From Nitrospirae bacterium CG2_30_53_67 (GTDB lineage Bacteria > CG2-30-53-67): a stretch of DNA of 10,153 nt. Under the pieces are notes generated by a model. It saw only the letters and a program-made list of their open reading frames with translations. It did not search any database and was not told the DNA's origin. Both the position numbers and the translations under genes were made by a program. Positions 1,894 through 8,616 of the stretch are shown piece after piece. Location: the NCBI GenBank assembly GCA_001873285.1, contig MNYV01000087.1:1-10153 (forward strand), in the 5' to 3' direction. The first letter of the stretch is position 1. Every line of letters begins with the position of its first letter.

Positions 1894-3150
1894 ATGAAAA
1901 GAGTTGATGATTTCCGGTTGAGGTTGGGCAAAAAAGAGCTGGTGCCGATCGTCATCGGAGCGATGGGTGTGGACATATCCATAGCAGAACTTGCGCTTAC
2001 CGCCGCTCGGCTCGGCGGAATCGGCCACATCTCCGATGCCATGGTGCACATCATCACCGACCGGCGGATGAAGACGAGTTTTGTAAAGGAAAAACTCAAA
2101 AAGTACCAATACAACATCGGCAACCCGGACAAATCCGAGGTTCATTTTGATCTCGGACAATTGGCTGAGGCGACCAGACTGCATGTAGGACGGACCATGG
2201 AGGCCAAAAAGGGTGACGGCCTCATCTTCATCAATACGATGGAAAAACTTACCATGAACGCGCCGCACGAAACCCTGCGTGTGCGCCTCAGCTCGGCCAT
2301 GGACGCCGGCATAGACGGCATTACCCTGAGCGCGGGTCTGCACCTGAGGTCTCTTGCCATGGTGCAGGATCATCCACGCTTTCGAGACGTAAAATTCGGC
2401 ATTATTGTCTCCTCACTTCGCGCCCTGTATCTCTTCCTTCGGAAAAACTCCAGGCTGAACCGCCTCCCCGATTATATCGTGGTGGAAGGCCCGCTTGCCG
2501 GCGGGCATCTCGGTTTCGGCATGGATTGGGCGCAGTATGACCTCAAGACCATTACGGACGAGATTATCCTTGATCTCAAGCGGAATGATCTGGACATACC
2601 GGTCATCCCTGCGGGGGGCATTTTCACAGGCACGGATGCCGTTGAATTTCTTGAGGCCGGAGCTTCGGCCGTTCAGGTGGCGACCCGTTTTGCGATCACA
2701 AAAGAAAGCGGACTGCCGGCCAAGGTTAAGCAGGAATATTTCAAGGCCGATGAGTCGGACATCGAGGTCAACATGATCTCACCCACCGGCTATCCGATGC
2801 GCATGCTGAAGATGTGCCCGGCGATCGTTTCGGGAAACAGACCGAATTGCGAAGCCTATGGCTATCTGCTGGATGGTTCGGGCAACTGCAGCTATAAAGA
2901 TGCCTATTACCTCGAGCTGAAGAAAAACCCAGGTGAGAAAAGAATGTCAGTCGAGGGAAAAACCTGCCTCTGCACTCAAATGCGGAATTTCGGCTGCTGG
3001 ACCTGCGGCCAAAACGCCTATCGGCTCAAAGAAACGACCCGGCGTCTCCCGGATGGAACCTATCGACTGCCGGCCGCGGAATTCGTTTTCAGGGATTATC
3101 AGTTCAGCGTCAATCATCAGACCAATCTTCCGGAAGAACCGGAAGGCTGA
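1894..3150 (+). CDS. Nitronate monooxygenase/FabK-like FMN oxidoreductase with Cys-rich tail
   Basis: The 418-residue product is a TIM-barrel flavoprotein of the 2-nitropropane dioxygenase family (COG2070). Visible signatures are the N-terminal IGAMGVDIS segment, the GPLAGGHLGF loop at 199-208 with His205 at the usual catalytic or flavin site, and the phosphate-binding IPAGGIFTGTDAV at 238-250 followed by GASAVQVATRF (256-266). Family members oxidise nitronates or reduce enoyl-ACP using FMN; which applies here cannot be told. It is longer than typical members (about 310-360). All seven cysteines (308, 319, 332, 358, 360, 368, 371) lie in the extra C-terminal segment, suggesting a metal or Fe-S site. 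The start is supported by gagga at 1886-1890. It follows the ATPase gene by 75 bases and converges with the HD-GYP gene. Confidence 0.88.
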   Translation: MKRVDDFRLRLGKKELVPIVIGAMGVDISIAELALTAARLGGIGHISDAMVHIITDRRMKTSFVKEKLKKYQYNIGNPDKSEVHFDLGQLAEATRLHVGRTMEAKKGDGLIFINTMEKLTMNAPHETLRVRLSSAMDAGIDGITLSAGLHLRSLAMVQDHPRFRDVKFGIIVSSLRALYLFLRKNSRLNRLPDYIVVEGPLAGGHLGFGMDWAQYDLKTITDEIILDLKRNDLDIPVIPAGGIFTGTDAVEFLEAGASAVQVATRFAITKESGLPAKVKQEYFKADESDIEVNMISPTGYPMRMLKMCPAIVSGNRPNCEAYGYLLDGSGNCSYKDAYYLELKKNPGEKRMSVEGKTCLCTQMRNFGCWTCGQNAYRLKETTRRLPDGTYRLPAAEFVFRDYQFSVNHQTNLPEEPEG

Positions 3151-3159
3151 TCATTTTTA
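3127..3159 (+). terminator. Hairpin with T-run at the end of the flavoprotein gene
   Basis: A 7-bp perfect stem (cttccgg 3127-3133 / ccggaag 3139-3145, loop aagaa) lies over the last codons of the flavoprotein gene. A run of five T follows at about 3154-3158. The 8-base gap between stem and T-run is longer than in a textbook terminator. It occupies the 6-base gap between two convergent genes. Confidence 0.4.
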
Positions 3160-4113
3160 TTCTTCGGAGCCGATTCGGTCCCCGAACTTCTGTTTTTGGA
3201 ACCCTTCATGACTGGTGTAATTGTTGACTTCATCCGGCGGACGGTAGCCGAGATGGCTCTGAGAATAAACCATGGTATCGAGCGGGGGTTTGCTATGACG
3301 GTTGTAGGAAAGGAGGAGTTTGACCCCGGTCATGTTCAGCTTCCCGCCTTCCGCTTCATCGCATAGATAATCCAGCGCCCCTCGTATATTAAACGGCTCC
3401 AGCCGATAGGGACGTTGTGATATCAGCGCATCGAATATATCGTTGATGGTCACGAACTGGATGAGACTCTCGACGACTTTGACTCCCCTGGGATACCCGG
3501 AGCCGTCCATTTTCTCGTGATGGTTGAGAGCCACAAGGGCATGCATGGATTCATGTTCCCCGGTGTAATAGACCAGCAGCAGAAAACCGATCCAGGGATG
3601 TTCATGGATATACAGGTACTGCTCGTAAGTCAGTTTTTTCGTACTCTGAAGTATCTCAAGAGGGATCCTGGACTTTCCAAAGTCATGGGTCAGAGCGGTC
3701 GATGCCGCAGTCAGCGCCATTTTCGAATCCTGGTATAGATCCTGCGCCATGCGAGCGGTCATGATCGTCGTGATCAGTATGTGCCTGTAGGTGTAGTAAT
3801 CTTTGATTTTGCAGAAATCGAGTTCCTCCAGAATATCATCGTTCAGAACCATCTCCCCGACAAGATCCAATACACGTTGTCTCAAGGTTTGCTGGTCAAA
3901 AATGATGCGGTAGTTCTCATCCTTCATGACGCGTAAGAAATCTTCCGGAAGGTGCGTCTCTTTGAGCCGGGTAGTCTTGTTGGAAGGCCGGGCGCGCTTA
4001 TGCTTGATCTCGTCCAGTATGGGCCTGGTGATCGTCTCCCCCCGGCCCAAGATCAGAGTTCCCTCATGGGCATACAGGTCTTCCCGCATGACCAGAGAAT
4101 TTTGGAAATCCAT
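3157..4113 (-). CDS. HD-GYP domain protein, probable c-di-GMP phosphodiesterase
   Basis: The 318-residue protein carries a full HD-GYP domain from about residue 105 to 275. Counted from the ATG, the motifs are THDFGK (His143-Asp144), HPWIG (172), HHEKMDGSGYPRG (198-210) and NDIFDALISQRPYR (224-237). These are the metal- and substrate-binding residues of the class that hydrolyses c-di-GMP. The N-terminal 100 residues lack a receiver, PAS or membrane segment; the piece around YAHEGTLILGRGETIT resembles the short lead-in seen in many stand-alone HD-GYP proteins. GTG (4116) and ATG (4113) are adjacent. aagagg at 4127-4122 is 8 bases from the ATG and 5 from the GTG, so ATG is preferred. It lies 72 bases downstream of the hydroxylase gene and may be co-transcribed with it. 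Confidence 0.9.
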   Translation of the reverse strand: MDFQNSLVMREDLYAHEGTLILGRGETITRPILDEIKHKRARPSNKTTRLKETHLPEDFLRVMKDENYRIIFDQQTLRQRVLDLVGEMVLNDDILEELDFCKIKDYYTYRHILITTIMTARMAQDLYQDSKMALTAASTALTHDFGKSRIPLEILQSTKKLTYEQYLYIHEHPWIGFLLLVYYTGEHESMHALVALNHHEKMDGSGYPRGVKVVESLIQFVTINDIFDALISQRPYRLEPFNIRGALDYLCDEAEGGKLNMTGVKLLLSYNRHSKPPLDTMVYSQSHLGYRPPDEVNNYTSHEGFQKQKFGDRIGSEE

Positions 4114-4188: not shown

Positions 4189-5010
4189 TTAGTCATCCCG
4201 GCGAAAGCTGTAGCCGCCGATTTTTATCTCAAATGGAATCCAGAGCAGGCGCAAAAGGTTCAGTCTTTCAAAATCACGGTATTCTTTAAGGCCGATGGTC
4301 ATCTCCCTATGCCCTTCCTGCGGCTGATCCCGGTAAGTCCCGAAGAGACGGTCCCACCAGGGAAAGAAAAATCCGAAATTGCTGTTGGTTTCCTTTACCT
4401 TCCAGGAGTGATGCACCCGGTGCATGTCCGGCGTGACCACAAATCTTCGGAGGATACGGTCAAGGGACAAGGGGATCGCCACATTCCCGTGATTGAACTG
4501 TGCAGAGGAATTCAGGATGACTTCAAAGAGCAAGACTCCGAAGGGATGAGCGCCCAATGCCGCCGCCAGCGCCGCCTTGTAAAGCATGGAGATGAAGATC
4601 TCCAAGGGGTGAAAACGAAGGCCGGTGGTCACATCAAAGTCCAGATCGGTGTGATGGACGCGGTGGAGGCGCCAGAAGACGGGGAGCGCATGGGACATGA
4701 CATGCTGCAGATAGATCGCCATGTCAAAGAAGAAGATGGTGATGAAAAAGGAGAAGACCTCAGGGAGATGAATTGCATGGAGGATCCCCCAACCGTGATC
4801 CCTGGCATAGACCGCCGTGCTCACGGCCACGGCGCCGAGGGTGAACCGGACAAATAGCATGTCCACCGCGGTCAGCGCAAGATTGGCAAACCAGCGGCGG
4901 CCTTTGGGCTGAAGCAGGACCCTTCTCGGCCGCATGACCTCCCAGACGGCCATGACCACTAAACATCCCAGAAATATGGAAAAACGGATCACGGACTCAT
5001 GTGCAATCAT
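4189..5010 (-). CDS. Fatty acid hydroxylase/sterol desaturase family membrane protein
   Basis: The 273-residue integral membrane protein belongs to the di-iron fatty acid hydroxylase superfamily (PF04116 type). Three histidine boxes are visible: HVMSH (103-107), HRVHH (116-120) and HRVHH (197-201), with further conserved-looking His134 and His174. Hydrophobic segments lie at about 8-24, 44-66, 84-100 and 138-165. Such enzymes hydroxylate or desaturate lipids at the cytoplasmic membrane using O2, so the gene implies at least some oxygen exposure; the substrate cannot be inferred. The ATG at 5010 is preceded by a purine-rich ggggag six bases upstream. The gene is divergent from the selenoprotein operon and upstream of the HD-GYP gene. 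Confidence 0.9.
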   Translation of the reverse strand: MIAHESVIRFSIFLGCLVVMAVWEVMRPRRVLLQPKGRRWFANLALTAVDMLFVRFTLGAVAVSTAVYARDHGWGILHAIHLPEVFSFFITIFFFDMAIYLQHVMSHALPVFWRLHRVHHTDLDFDVTTGLRFHPLEIFISMLYKAALAAALGAHPFGVLLFEVILNSSAQFNHGNVAIPLSLDRILRRFVVTPDMHRVHHSWKVKETNSNFGFFFPWWDRLFGTYRDQPQEGHREMTIGLKEYRDFERLNLLRLLWIPFEIKIGGYSFRRDD

Positions 5011-5229: not shown

Positions 5230-5258
5230 TTGACACGGCGCTCATTCTATTGTATTTT
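5230..5258 (+). promoter_or_regulatory. Sigma70-like promoter of the ferritin/DUF2231/selenoprotein operon
   Basis: A perfect TTGACA at 5230-5235 is followed, after exactly 17 bases, by TATTTT at 5253-5258 (4 of 6 to consensus). Transcription would begin near 5265, giving a leader of about 50 bases before the ATG at 5316. No other good promoter appears between the three downstream genes. Confidence 0.6.
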
Positions 5259-5315: not shown

Positions 5316-5549
5316 ATGAATAAAGAGATCAAAGAGATGGAAAAGGTCCTTGAGATCTATACCATCGCCGCTCGTCGGGAGAAGGCAGCCTACGAGTTTT
5401 ACAAGGACGTTGCCGAAAAGGTTTCAACCGAAGAAGAAAAAAAAATCCTCCTCGGACTGGCGCAGTTTGAGATGCAGCACCTCAAGCTGATGGAAAGCCA
5501 TTATGAAAAGACCCTTAAAAAAATTAAAGAACTGCATAAGCAGAGCTGA
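5316..5549 (+). CDS. Two-helix ferritin-like (half-rubrerythrin) protein
   Basis: The 77-residue, soluble, helical protein matches one half of a rubrerythrin/ferritin-like bundle. Helix 1 has Glu22 in REKAAYEFY, and helix 2 has FEMQH with Glu52 and His55 as an ExxH metal motif. Only one Glu...ExxH half is present, so a diiron site and a four-helix bundle would need dimerisation. The frame is open upstream to 5001, but the ATG at 5316 is chosen because gggagag (5304-5310) stands 5 bases ahead, the family match begins here, and a promoter lies inside the upstream part. It is the first gene of the operon. The role is probably iron or peroxide handling, by family inference. Encapsulin-cargo ferritins are also two-helix, but no encapsulin gene is in view. 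Confidence 0.82.
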   Translation: MNKEIKEMEKVLEIYTIAARREKAAYEFYKDVAEKVSTEEEKKILLGLAQFEMQHLKLMESHYEKTLKKIKELHKQS

Positions 5550-5582: not shown

Positions 5583-5999
5583 ATGGCCGTTTTCAAAATC
5601 CATCCCCACCCCATCGCCGTCCACTTCTCCAACGGCCTGATTCCGGTCTCGGTTTTTTTTCTCATGGTTTTTGGGGTCACCCGGATCCCTGACATGGAGA
5701 TCGTTGCCTTTTACACCCTCTTGACCGGCACACTGGGTTCCATGCTGGCCGTGGGTACGGGACTCTTCGACTGGAAGAAGAACTACCGCGGCGCCTGGGT
5801 CCCGGTGTTCAAGAAGAAATTGACCGCCGGCATTTTGGCTATCGTTATAGGCATGATCGCCTGCATCATCCGTTTTTTGAATCCGGAACTTCTTTATTCC
5901 ATCACCCCCCTTTCCATCATATATTTGGCCCTGAATCTTTTTATCCTGGGCTGCGTGAGCATTGCCGGTTATCTGGGGGGGAGGCTCGTTTTCCAATAG
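5583..5999 (+). CDS. DUF2231-type four-helix membrane protein
   Basis: The 138-residue protein has about four transmembrane segments (15-32, 41-61, 80-98, 109-130). It opens with the histidine-rich HPHPIAVHF (His7, His9, His14), typical of DUF2231 proteins, and has GTGLFDW at 58-64 after helix 2. The family has no settled biochemical function; the conserved histidines make heme or metal binding plausible. aggag ends at 5576, six bases before the ATG. It lies 33 bases after the ferritin-like gene and 12 bases before the selenoprotein gene, so co-transcription is very likely. A membrane redox or transport partner for the two soluble diiron proteins is an inference. Confidence 0.85.
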   Translation: MAVFKIHPHPIAVHFSNGLIPVSVFFLMVFGVTRIPDMEIVAFYTLLTGTLGSMLAVGTGLFDWKKNYRGAWVPVFKKKLTAGILAIVIGMIACIIRFLNPELLYSITPLSIIYLALNLFILGCVSIAGYLGGRLVFQ

Positions 6000-6011
6000 T
6001 GAGGAGAATAT

Positions 6012-6836
6012 ATGGCCTTCCTAAATTACTTTAAACCTGTTCCGTCATGGAGCTCTAATCAAGTCCTTGATTTTATAAAAGATAAGAATCCTGATGAATA
6101 TCAACTTATAGACGTGCGTCAGCCTTCAGAGTATCAAGGAGAACACCTGCCTGGCGCCCGTTTGATCCCCATCGGGGAACTCTCCTCACGTCTGAACGAA
6201 CTCGACCCGAAAAAACCGACCATCACCTATTGAAAAGCCGGCGTACGCAGCCGGTCGGCTGCAGGCATGCTCTCCGGCGCCGGTTTCAAGCAGGTCTTCA
6301 CCATGACAGGCGGGATCGATGTCTGGAACGGCCTCAGGGCATCCGGCGCACCCGATGCGGGGATGGCCGTGTTTTCAGATGCCGACACGGCCGAAGACCT
6401 GCTGGCCTTGGCGTGGGTCCTGGAGGAAGGTTCCCGCAAATTCTACGCCGGCGTATCAAGATCCCTGAAGGATGACGGGGCCGTAAAACTGTTTCAACAA
6501 CTCACAGCCGCCGAGGAGAAACACAAGGAATCTCTTGTCCGGCTCTATGGAGAGATTTCCGGGTCGCCTCTGCCTGTTTTTTCTGAATTGGAAGGCTCCG
6601 AAGGCCTGATGGAAGGAGGGATACCGGTCGGCGCCGGACTCTCCTGGGCTAAGAACAAGGGCGCAAGAGAAATCCTTCAGTTCTCCATGGCCATGGAGAC
6701 CAATGCCTACGACCTCTATCTGAAGATGATCCCCCGGATGACGGATGAAAAATCCGCGCGGGTTTTTAAAACCTTGGCTGAGGAAGAAAAAGGGCATCTG
6801 GACAAACTGGGTAAGCTGCTGGAGCAAAGGGTCTGA
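6012..6836 (+). CDS. Selenocysteine-containing rhodanese fused to rubrerythrin-like diiron domain
   Basis: The gene reads as 274 residues with in-frame TGA at 6231-6233 translated as Sec74. The rhodanese domain (about 15-110) has LIDVRQPSE (32-40) and EHLPGARLIP, then U74-K-A-G-V-R79 exactly where rhodaneses have the catalytic CRxGxR loop. GFKQVFTMTGGIDVWNG follows in the same frame. The second domain (about 125-274) is a complete four-helix ferritin-like fold: Glu139, E168xxH171, Glu229 and E259xxH262. Rhodaneses transfer sulfane sulfur through a Cys persulfide; Sec would give a selenium-based site. The rubrerythrin part suggests peroxide or iron chemistry. gaggag (6001-6006) lies 5 bases before the ATG. 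A stop-based reading gives a truncated 73-residue piece and a false start at 6267 without a ribosome site. Mutation of a Cys codon is the alternative, but the intact downstream frame and the SECIS hairpin argue against it. Confidence 0.88.
6231..6233 (+). other. In-frame UGA, predicted selenocysteine codon
   Basis: This TGA replaces the active-site cysteine codon of the rhodanese loop. Codons on both sides stay in one frame and continue the domain without interruption. The recoding reading needs SelA, SelB, SelC and SelD, none of which is encoded in this window. Confidence 0.85.
6234..6266 (+). promoter_or_regulatory. Bacterial SECIS hairpin
   Basis: A perfect 6-bp stem (gcagcc 6247-6252 / ggctgc 6257-6262) closes a GGTC tetraloop at 6253-6256. 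The first loop G is 20 bases after the UGA. In E. coli fdhF the equivalent GGUC begins 19 bases after UGA and is the SelB contact. The stem codes for the conserved rhodanese residues after the active loop, so RNA and protein constraints overlap. A further pair g6241-c6266 and c6242-g6265 could extend the stem across an internal loop. Confidence 0.83.
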
Positions 6837-6860
6837 CCCCGGAATACACTAAAAAATATA

Positions 6861-6903
6861 AGGGGTCAAGGGGCCAAGGATTCCAGGGGTCAAGTGAAGT
6901 GCT
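6861..6903. repeat. Dispersed repeat, inverted copy of 113-155
   Basis: This 43-base block differs at only two positions from the reverse complement of 113-155. It begins 24 bases after the selenoprotein gene, in the gap before the convergent peptidase gene. The rest of the gap (6904-7016) shows no gene or clear structure. Confidence 0.75.
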
Positions 6904-7016: not shown

Positions 7017-8039
7017 TCATGGCGATTCCTTTTTCTCCCGTGGGGAGGCCGGGAACCTGGATTGAATCTCTTCGAGTGTCTTTTGAAAGAGATCCATCAT
7101 GGGGCCGTTTAGGGCCACCGCACGGCGGGCTGCATCCAGGGCCTCCTCTCCCCTCCCCTGTTCCATGAGCACCTGGGCCAGATTATTCCATGCCGGCCCG
7201 GAATCCGGATGCAGGCGGGCCGCCTGCCTGAAGGCTTCCTCCGCAGTCGTGAGTTCACCCGATGCATAAAAACTATTGCCCAAACCCATGAGTGCGCCGA
7301 GGCTCCCGGGCCAGCGCGCGAGCGCCGTTTGATAGCCGGTCACCGCGGCAGTCCATTGCCGGGCCTGTTCCAGTCCCAGCACGGCCATGAGATAATCTTC
7401 CTCATCGGCGGTGGCAGGAAATTCTTCCGGCCGTAAAACCAGCAGTCCCCAATACCCGCTCCTTAACCAAGTGTTTTTAAAAACCCGGAAGGATAAGTGT
7501 TCCCGTGGTGTTTTTCCGGAATGAAGGATGATGGTATCTTCAGGCAGGTCATAGCCGACGACGACTGCATAATGCCACATGGGATACCAGGAGAGTCCAA
7601 GATTCTGAAGGACCATGACCGGATGACCGTCGGCCACCTCCGTGAGCATGGCCTCGATCCCTGAAATCGGATAGGCGATCCGGCCGTGACGCCGTGCCGC
7701 GCTGATCAGCGAAGTCTGAAGGCTCCCCTTACGGACGGGCGTATAGACCTCGGATTCGAGTTCTTCAGGGGTGACCGAGATCCCGCGGGAACGGAGCAGC
7801 ATGGCGAGGGCCGCAGGACCGCATTGATGCTCACTCTGGGCGTAAAATGGAACCGCGCTGATCTCAGTCTTGGCAGGTCTCCCCTCACCATACGCCGGCA
7901 AGGAGCCTGATCGCAGCCCGGTACAGCCGGTAGGCAGGATACTCAACAAGAGGACGAGCAGGGCGCAGCAACATCGGCAATCAACCCCGTTACTCACCGT
8001 CTTGTAAGACGGGGCTTTCTTGCTGATCTGATATTGCAT
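7017..8039 (-). CDS. PA2778-family C39-like cysteine peptidase lipoprotein with TPRs
   Basis: Counted from the ATG at 8039 the product has 340 residues. A signal segment ALLVLLLSILPTGC ends in a lipobox with the lipidated Cys at 39, so it should be an envelope lipoprotein. The papain-like peptidase domain follows: PFYAQSEHQCGPAALAMLL with catalytic Cys73, and MWHYAVVVGYD with His156. About 213-311 are tetratricopeptide-type helices (ALMGLGNSFYASGELTTAEE; PAWNNLAQVLMEQGRGEEAL). This is the PA2778 arrangement, normally encoded next to a PA2779 protein, as here. The substrate is unknown. The start is uncertain: GTG at 8066 and an internal GTG at 7997 are also in frame, none has a good ribosome site, and the 5' part overlaps a repeat-like hairpin. 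Confidence 0.87.
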   Translation of the reverse strand: MQYQISKKAPSYKTVSNGVDCRCCCALLVLLLSILPTGCTGLRSGSLPAYGEGRPAKTEISAVPFYAQSEHQCGPAALAMLLRSRGISVTPEELESEVYTPVRKGSLQTSLISAARRHGRIAYPISGIEAMLTEVADGHPVMVLQNLGLSWYPMWHYAVVVGYDLPEDTIILHSGKTPREHLSFRVFKNTWLRSGYWGLLVLRPEEFPATADEEDYLMAVLGLEQARQWTAAVTGYQTALARWPGSLGALMGLGNSFYASGELTTAEEAFRQAARLHPDSGPAWNNLAQVLMEQGRGEEALDAARRAVALNGPMMDLFQKTLEEIQSRFPASPREKKESP

Positions 8040-8204
8040 ATGCCATTCACCACATTGGAAGTTCACTGTTGCGTGACAGGAGTCTGAACTTCTGACAGAG
8101 GAAACTTCTAACGTGGTTCATCCCCAGCCTGAAGTCCGGGGCTTTCTGGTGTAACGGGGTCAACACGGTAGTCCGCTCTACGAGCCATCGGCCACTCCGT
8201 TACC
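7990..8204 (-). other. Structured hairpin region resembling IS200/IS605-type ends
   Basis: Two hairpins (stem 7997-8003/8006-8012; stem 8122-8125/8138-8141) are each followed by the identical 11-mer cggggctttct (8010-8020 and 8137-8147), which reads AGAAAGCCCCG on the minus strand. Further pairings are gaagttca 8058-8065/tgaacttc 8085-8092 and gtaacgg 8151-8157/ccgttac 8197-8203. AAAGCCCC next to a GC hairpin recalls right ends and guide-RNA scaffolds of IS605-group elements. No transposase or TnpB is present, so it is at best a remnant or non-autonomous element. It spans the gap between the PA2779 and PA2778 genes and runs into both. Confidence 0.4.
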
Positions 8205-8616
8205 GCCTGGGGGCTGGGTGGTTGACAAATGAGTAGACGCGTGTCAGTCCCAGAAGGTCCGTAATCAACAAAACAATAAAGACGAACAAGGCCGCTCCGA
8301 TCAGCGCCCCCACGGCATCACCACCGGCGGGGAGCCGGTCCATCATACCGGAAATTCGGTTCACCTCGGTATCGGTCAAACTGTTGATGCGCGCCCGAGC
8401 TTCCTCGGGCCGGACACCCTGCTGAACCATGACGGTCTGAACATCCTGCCGGTTCAGGAAATTCACAAGTCGTGTGCGGGCATTCCGTCCCTCTGTGGTG
8501 TTCAGCGCCGTTTCCGTCCCCACCATGGCTGCGCGGGCCGTGTGCACGGAAAAGTCGAGCATGGAATAAGAAATAATCAGGAAAAAACAGACCGGCTTGG
8601 CAATCGAACGCATCAT
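8200..8616 (-). CDS. PA2779-family membrane-anchored protein
   Basis: The 138-residue protein has an N-terminal signal or anchor (about 6-30, ending TARAA). A helical middle (38-95) contains RTRLVNFLNRQDVQTVM, RPEEARARINSLTDTEV and RLPAGGD. One transmembrane helix (101-123) leads into DLLGLTRVYSF. This matches the small PA2779 family always found with the PA2778 peptidase. The last residues (NHPAPRR) look unlike the family tail and fall at the edge of the hairpin region. Two ATGs are adjacent (8616 and 8613); aaggag lies 6 bases before the first. It probably shares a transcript with the peptidase 160 bases downstream. The function is unknown; an envelope partner or substrate of the peptidase is a reasonable guess. 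Confidence 0.87.
   Translation of the reverse strand: MMRSIAKPVCFFLIISYSMLDFSVHTARAAMVGTETALNTTEGRNARTRLVNFLNRQDVQTVMVQQGVRPEEARARINSLTDTEVNRISGMMDRLPAGGDAVGALIGAALFVFIVLLITDLLGLTRVYSFVNHPAPRR

Follow-up and report, generated by a model that had tools for sequence, protein, structure and literature searches.

A predicted selenoprotein combining a rhodanese domain with a rubrerythrin-like diiron module, from a bacterial family that appears to switch between selenocysteine and cysteine

The window, by which we mean the whole stretch of 10,153 nucleotides analysed here, carries on its plus strand a gene at positions 6012 to 6836, which starts with ATG at 6012 and ends with TGA at 6834-6836. Translation gave a single frame of 275 codons containing one internal TGA (6231-6233, plus strand, codon 74); when this TGA is read as selenocysteine (Sec), the product has 274 residues with Sec at residue 74. 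A Shine-Dalgarno-like TGAGGAG (6000-6006, plus strand), read from the sequence, lies 5 nt upstream of the ATG. The context of codon 74 is ITY-U-KAGVRSRSAAG, in which the TGA occupies the position of the catalytic cysteine of a rhodanese (UKAGVRS loop), and residue 74 is the sole Cys or Sec residue in the protein. Past this TGA, the frame continues for 200 more codons, which cover the rest of the rhodanese domain and a rubrerythrin domain. The preliminary description of this DNA had placed an in-frame TGA at the rhodanese catalytic cysteine in an intact frame, and the translation bears this out. If the TGA were a true stop, the locus would encode a truncated rhodanese of 73 residues and a separate rubrerythrin-like domain, starting for example from ATG 6267, as a split or decaying pseudogene. 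An ORF from this ATG to 6836 (189 amino acids) does exist, but the rhodanese fragment of 73 residues would be without its nucleophile.

Upstream on the same strand are genes for a small rubrerythrin-like protein of 77 amino acids (5316-5549; Pfam PF02915, E 3.9e-5), which amounts to half of a ferritin-like bundle, and for a DUF2231 membrane protein of 138 amino acids (5583-5999; Pfam PF09990, E 1e-12). The former heads a conserved cluster, the order of which is common to the genomes G003, G004, and G005; the latter ends 12 nt upstream of the selenoprotein ATG and is kept upstream in three same-family genomes. A promoter-like site, TTGACA-17-TATTTT (5230-5258, plus strand), is found upstream of the cluster as a consensus match only. 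Divergent from the cluster is a gene of the fatty acid hydroxylase/sterol desaturase family (4189-5010, minus strand; Pfam PF04116, E 1.1e-26).

Several other features of the window were observed. A nitronate monooxygenase-like protein (1894-3150; PF03060) has a Cys-rich C-terminal stretch (CLCTQMRNFGCWTCGQ). On the minus strand, a C39-type peptidase with TPR repeats and a small membrane-anchored protein are encoded side by side (7017-8066 and 8200-8616), a pair that presumably resembles PA2778/PA2779. Short non-coding stretches at 1-150 and at about 6860-6895 resemble each other (ggggtcaagg...ccaggggtcaagtga) and look like copies of a dispersed repeat, the second being just 3' of the selenoprotein stop. 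An inverted repeat at about 397-566, with the ends GGGGCTGTTGAAAAAGT and CACTTTTTCAACAGCCCC, is of a type found in small non-autonomous mobile elements.

The domain composition of the protein was examined with Pfam and by structure prediction. The Rhodanese domain (PF00581) was located at residues 20-106 (68.7 bits; cut-off 22.2) and the Rubrerythrin domain (PF02915) at residues 129-269 (50 bits; cut-off 22.8). An AlphaFold2 model built with the family alignment (mean pLDDT 89.0, pTM 0.85) consists of two confident domains, so that the fusion of the two in one chain, as claimed in the preliminary description, stands. In structure comparison, the N-terminal part matched rhodanese domains (3tp9, Z 18.5; 3nta; 5ve3), and the C-terminal part matched ferritin-like proteins, including nigerythrin (Z about 17) and mini-bacterioferritin. 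Of the features that define a rhodanese, the protein has a Pfam score above the cut-off, the predicted rhodanese fold, and an active-site loop with a nucleophile (Sec in place of Cys) and an Arg; by sequence and model, the C-terminal domain likewise has the four-helix diiron fold and the ligands expected for PF02915. The C-terminal rubredoxin FeS4 domain with its four Cys is absent, since the chain stops 5 residues past the four-helix domain; thus, we keep to the cautious term "rubrerythrin-like diiron module". Among the 45 homologs described below, D34, R36, E40, residue 74 (U or C), G77, and R79 are invariant, and the candidate diiron ligands E138, E168, H171, E229, E259, and H262 are kept in 44 to 45.

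In profile comparison, the C-terminal domain weakly resembled the ferritin-like part of the iron exporter MbfA, and the rhodanese domain scored higher with GlpE/MoeZ types than with MnmH. The MbfA similarity and the ferritin-like and mini-bacterioferritin structural matches would suit a role in iron-sulfur or iron trafficking or in redox sensing, in which iron is held by the ferritin-like domain while the rhodanese domain either provides sulfur or does no more than sense oxidants. We regard this as unlikely: we noticed neither a DNA-binding domain nor isc or suf genes in the window, and the catalytic loop, which a pure sensor does not need, is intact.

About 580 genomes were searched, and 45 homologs of the fusion were analysed. 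The codon equivalent to codon 74 is TGA in 23 of them and TGC or TGT in the other 22; no TGA was found elsewhere within the aligned protein in any Sec member examined. Among eight genomes of the window's phylum, G003, G004, and G005 have complete orthologs (52-53% identity), each with one TGA at codon 74. Only the C-terminal part was found in G002, at a contig end, and the fusion gene was not found in the same-genus genome G001. One Sec member, G250, comes from a genome that forms a single contig and is given as 100% complete. Wider searches covering 386 relatives and 198 genomes of the phylum of G030 gave many full-length fusions. Since 51 of the 198 match the family, most with the full-length fusion, the earlier suggestion that the combination is unusual does not hold. 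In a further phylum (12 genomes searched), there are four full-length members, all with TGA at codon 74, three of which are new beyond the 45. Thus, homologs with Cys and others with TGA at residue 74, which the preliminary description had proposed to look for, both exist, and none of the close relatives has a decayed frame. On a maximum-likelihood tree with residue 74 masked, at least eight changes between Sec and Cys are needed, five of which are forced by strongly supported branches. A scan of genome contigs gave only two distant matches, over the rhodanese part; viral contigs contained no relatives, and plasmids and phages gave partial matches only, none covering 80% of the query.

A hairpin of the bSECIS type follows the internal TGA at 6247-6262 (plus strand), with the arms GCAGCC (6247-6252) and GGCTGC (6257-6262) and the loop GGTC (6253-6256). 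Its stem of 6 bp is perfect, and the loop, GGUC in the RNA, starts 19 nt past the UGA at 6231-6233. We take this loop to be the same as that in E. coli fdhF. The bSECIS model has a loop of 3-9 nt, an upper stem of 4-16 bp, a distance of 16-37 nt between the UGA and the loop, and a G within the first two loop positions, and the window hairpin agrees with all the constraints quoted (PMC13188914). An Rfam scan of 6100-6500 gave no match to a SECIS family, which is not informative because bSECIS elements vary.

In synonymous shuffles, the window hairpin alone was not significant (p about 0.19); most single hairpins are explicable by codon choice, and thus the weight rests on the family pattern. 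A stem of at least 6 bp is present in 21 of the 23 Sec genes versus three of the 22 Cys genes, for which the Fisher p of 1e-7 is overstated because the genes are related. The mean free energy (-18.4 for Sec and -17.1 for Cys genes) does not separate the two groups; stem length does. The hairpin codons (79-83) are identical at four of five positions across four family orthologs, versus 13 of 80 positions elsewhere (Fisher p 0.005), and these orthologs have CGC AGC CGG TCG in common, whereas their protein identity to the window's is only 52-53%. The arms are compensated in G514 (GCAGCA-GGUC-UGCUGC), the hairpin is shifted in G430 (GAGCCGC-GUG-GCGGCUC), and the stem of G005 is interrupted (4 bp). 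From the TGA/Cys conservation, the hairpin-codon identity, and the stem counts, the predicted element is beyond chance, and the SECIS-type hairpin that had been claimed for this gene is both present and conserved.

One candidate TGA member, L046 (the same locus as L099, in G221), was rejected, as its TGA is a normal stop and its active-site codon is TGT. This Cys member (3094-3924, minus strand) keeps a 7-bp SECIS-like hairpin and is probably a fossil of a recent Sec-to-Cys change. Another Cys member, L111 (G393), also retains a long stem.

The window genome (2.36 Mb in 183 contigs, 95% complete) contains selA (611.6 bits), selB (296.8 bits), selD (158.3 bits), and a tRNA-Sec gene (selC) with the anticodon UCA; selB and selD are over their cut-offs and are cut by contig ends. 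All four genes that the preliminary description had named for a check were therefore found. In 47 of 47 other genomes tested, which have Sec members, Cys members, or close kin of them, selB was also over the cut-off.

These results bear on the reading of the TGA as a true stop. Although the hairpin could act in another way, a true stop would have to coincide with the catalytic residue, and with no other position, in 23 genomes. Sec members conserve the KAGVRS loop and the C-terminal half of the rhodanese domain just as Cys members do, the 22 Cys members read through this position, and the Sec machinery is present. We consider a true stop extremely improbable. The region 6012-6836 almost certainly encodes a predicted selenoprotein with Sec at the rhodanese catalytic position; the selenoprotein reading put forward earlier is supported by the TGA/Cys homologs, the conserved bSECIS-type hairpin, and the Sec machinery of the genome.

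The genes adjoining the fusion in other genomes include an FAD oxidoreductase. It sits between the DUF2231 gene and the fusion in G003, G004, and G005, flanks the fusion upstream or downstream in 17 of the 45 loci, across phyla, and adjoins it in 16 of the 20 genomes having a copy. It was not found in the window genome at E 1e-60 and thus cannot be an obligate partner. Its nearest profile is TIGR03169 (275 bits, below the cut-off of 310). We dropped an identity of the CoA-disulfide/SQR type: of its Cys residues, just the one within the GGGDC FAD motif is invariant, and there is no conserved redox disulfide, so the enzyme looks NDH-2-like. A homolog in G454 (contig C47, 1704-2810, minus strand) has one in-frame TGA, which could be Sec, a frameshift artefact, or a terminal stop. 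In five other genomes (L086, L087, L093, L096, and L100), a gene of the fatty acid hydroxylase family is directly upstream of the fusion, stopping 2-94 bases before the fusion domain; there it seems to take the place of the FAD oxidoreductase as the neighbour, and its product is a possible partner of the fusion.

The best overall explanation of the locus, to which we give a rough probability of 0.85, is that it encodes a selenoprotein; its proposed role is detoxification that would combine Sec74 and the diiron domain. SelB and tRNA-Sec would insert Sec at residue 74, where it would serve as the nucleophile of a sulfurtransferase, accept a sulfane sulfur (or selenium), held as Se-S(H), and hand it on. 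As the protein lacks a second Cys, the transfer would be to another molecule and not through an internal selenenylsulfide. Peroxide or oxygen would be reduced at a diiron site in the four-helix, rubrerythrin-like C-terminal domain, with electrons coming in many species from the neighbouring NDH-2-like FAD oxidoreductase. The most likely job would be detoxification in an anaerobe, with Sec74 dealing with persulfide or sulfane sulfur and the diiron site removing peroxide; Sec may offer faster exchange and resistance to over-oxidation. The function as a sulfur- or selenium-transfer enzyme is what we infer from these features, and we propose the specific mechanism only tentatively, at somewhat less than even odds. 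A point against it is that a rhodanese domain can also be regulatory.

In known rhodaneses, the C/U-x-x-G-x-R loop binds the persulfide anion. The invariance of this loop in Sec and Cys members alike, together with the lack of a resolving Cys, argues against Sec74 being a peroxidase-type nucleophile with selenenic acid chemistry, in which case the rhodanese fold of this branch would act without sulfur transfer. Many selenoproteins are redox enzymes (PMC9312934), and the gene sits with another rubrerythrin-like protein, which suggests oxidative stress, but on balance we find this reading improbable.

A different role for a genuine Sec residue would be selenium supply, with the rhodanese domain binding selenium as a perselenide and delivering it to SelD for selenophosphate, and with the FAD oxidoreductase reducing selenium. 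TIGR03169, to which the oxidoreductase is closest, is a domain N-terminal to SelD, and SelD is commonly fused with an NADH dehydrogenase-like domain (PMC4561486); according to a title cited in PMC2398784 and PMC1794560, enzymes with the rhodanese fold synthesize selenouridine in tRNA by using selenophosphate. However, we noticed no selD beside the gene, either in the window or in the flanking sequence that was read, the window genome is without such an oxidoreductase at the threshold given above, and the rhodanese domain resembles GlpE/MoeZ more than MnmH. Cys members are as common as Sec members, and the diiron domain would be left unexplained. We therefore judge selenium supply to be quite unlikely and retain the combined Sec74/diiron detoxification role.

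Selenoproteins with rhodanese-like domains are already known, and forms 1-5 are listed in a 2026 review (PMC13188914), with first reports cited there and in PMC1088965 and PMC2398784. The window protein is like these forms in having Sec at the active-site Cys and a bSECIS after the TGA, and its UxxG motif is as in forms 2 and 4. It differs in that the descriptions of the five mention neither a rubrerythrin nor a ferritin-like domain. The word "rubrerythrin" is absent from four selenoprotein papers, including these three, and the open-access literature gave no description of a rhodanese selenoprotein fused with a rubrerythrin or ferritin-like domain. Form 2 (UxxG; type sequence MBM9537886.1, known here by its motif alone) might include a member of the fusion family. 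No NCBIfam model covers the fusion, and the closest selenoprotein models score well under their cut-offs.

Other known systems share parts of the architecture. TsoB (NF045694) likewise joins a rhodanese domain containing Sec to a second domain, but the partner is DsbD-like and there are two Sec; the window protein reaches 22 bits with this model, for which the cut-off is 805. The NADH-dependent persulfide reductase/CoADR-RHD (3nta, 3icr) has the rhodanese fold (Z 16.5-17) and works with an FAD pyridine-nucleotide oxidoreductase; it is one chain with Cys, whereas the window family has a separate neighbouring oxidoreductase and a fused diiron domain. The persulfide dioxygenase-rhodanese fusion BpPRF (5ve3) joins a rhodanese to an iron enzyme, but has Cys instead of Sec and an iron domain that is not ferritin-like and that we take to be a mononuclear dioxygenase of the metallo-beta-lactamase fold. 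Rubrerythrin and nigerythrin (1yux, 1yuz) have the same four-helix diiron fold (Z about 17) and conserved Glu and ExxH ligands, whereas the window protein has an N-terminal rhodanese domain in place of rubredoxin.

Judged from gene sequences, this is a widespread rhodanese-rubrerythrin family that switches repeatedly between Sec and Cys, for which we found no description in the open-access literature. Because standard gene calling cuts Sec members at the TGA and leaves a shortened rhodanese and a rubrerythrin without its N-terminal partner, the family can be overlooked, although roughly one in four of the genomes sampled from one phylum has it. It may represent a new class of selenoenzyme, a diiron oxidase or peroxidase with a Sec persulfide on the fused rhodanese as redox partner, in which sulfane sulfur chemistry and peroxide removal would be coupled in one chain; we hold this to be conceivable but doubtful. 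The natural occurrence of the same two-domain protein in a Sec and a Cys form, with repeated switches, offers a ready way to test the advantage of selenium to a sulfurtransferase, and the family ties selenium, sulfane sulfur, and non-heme diiron chemistry together in bacteria.
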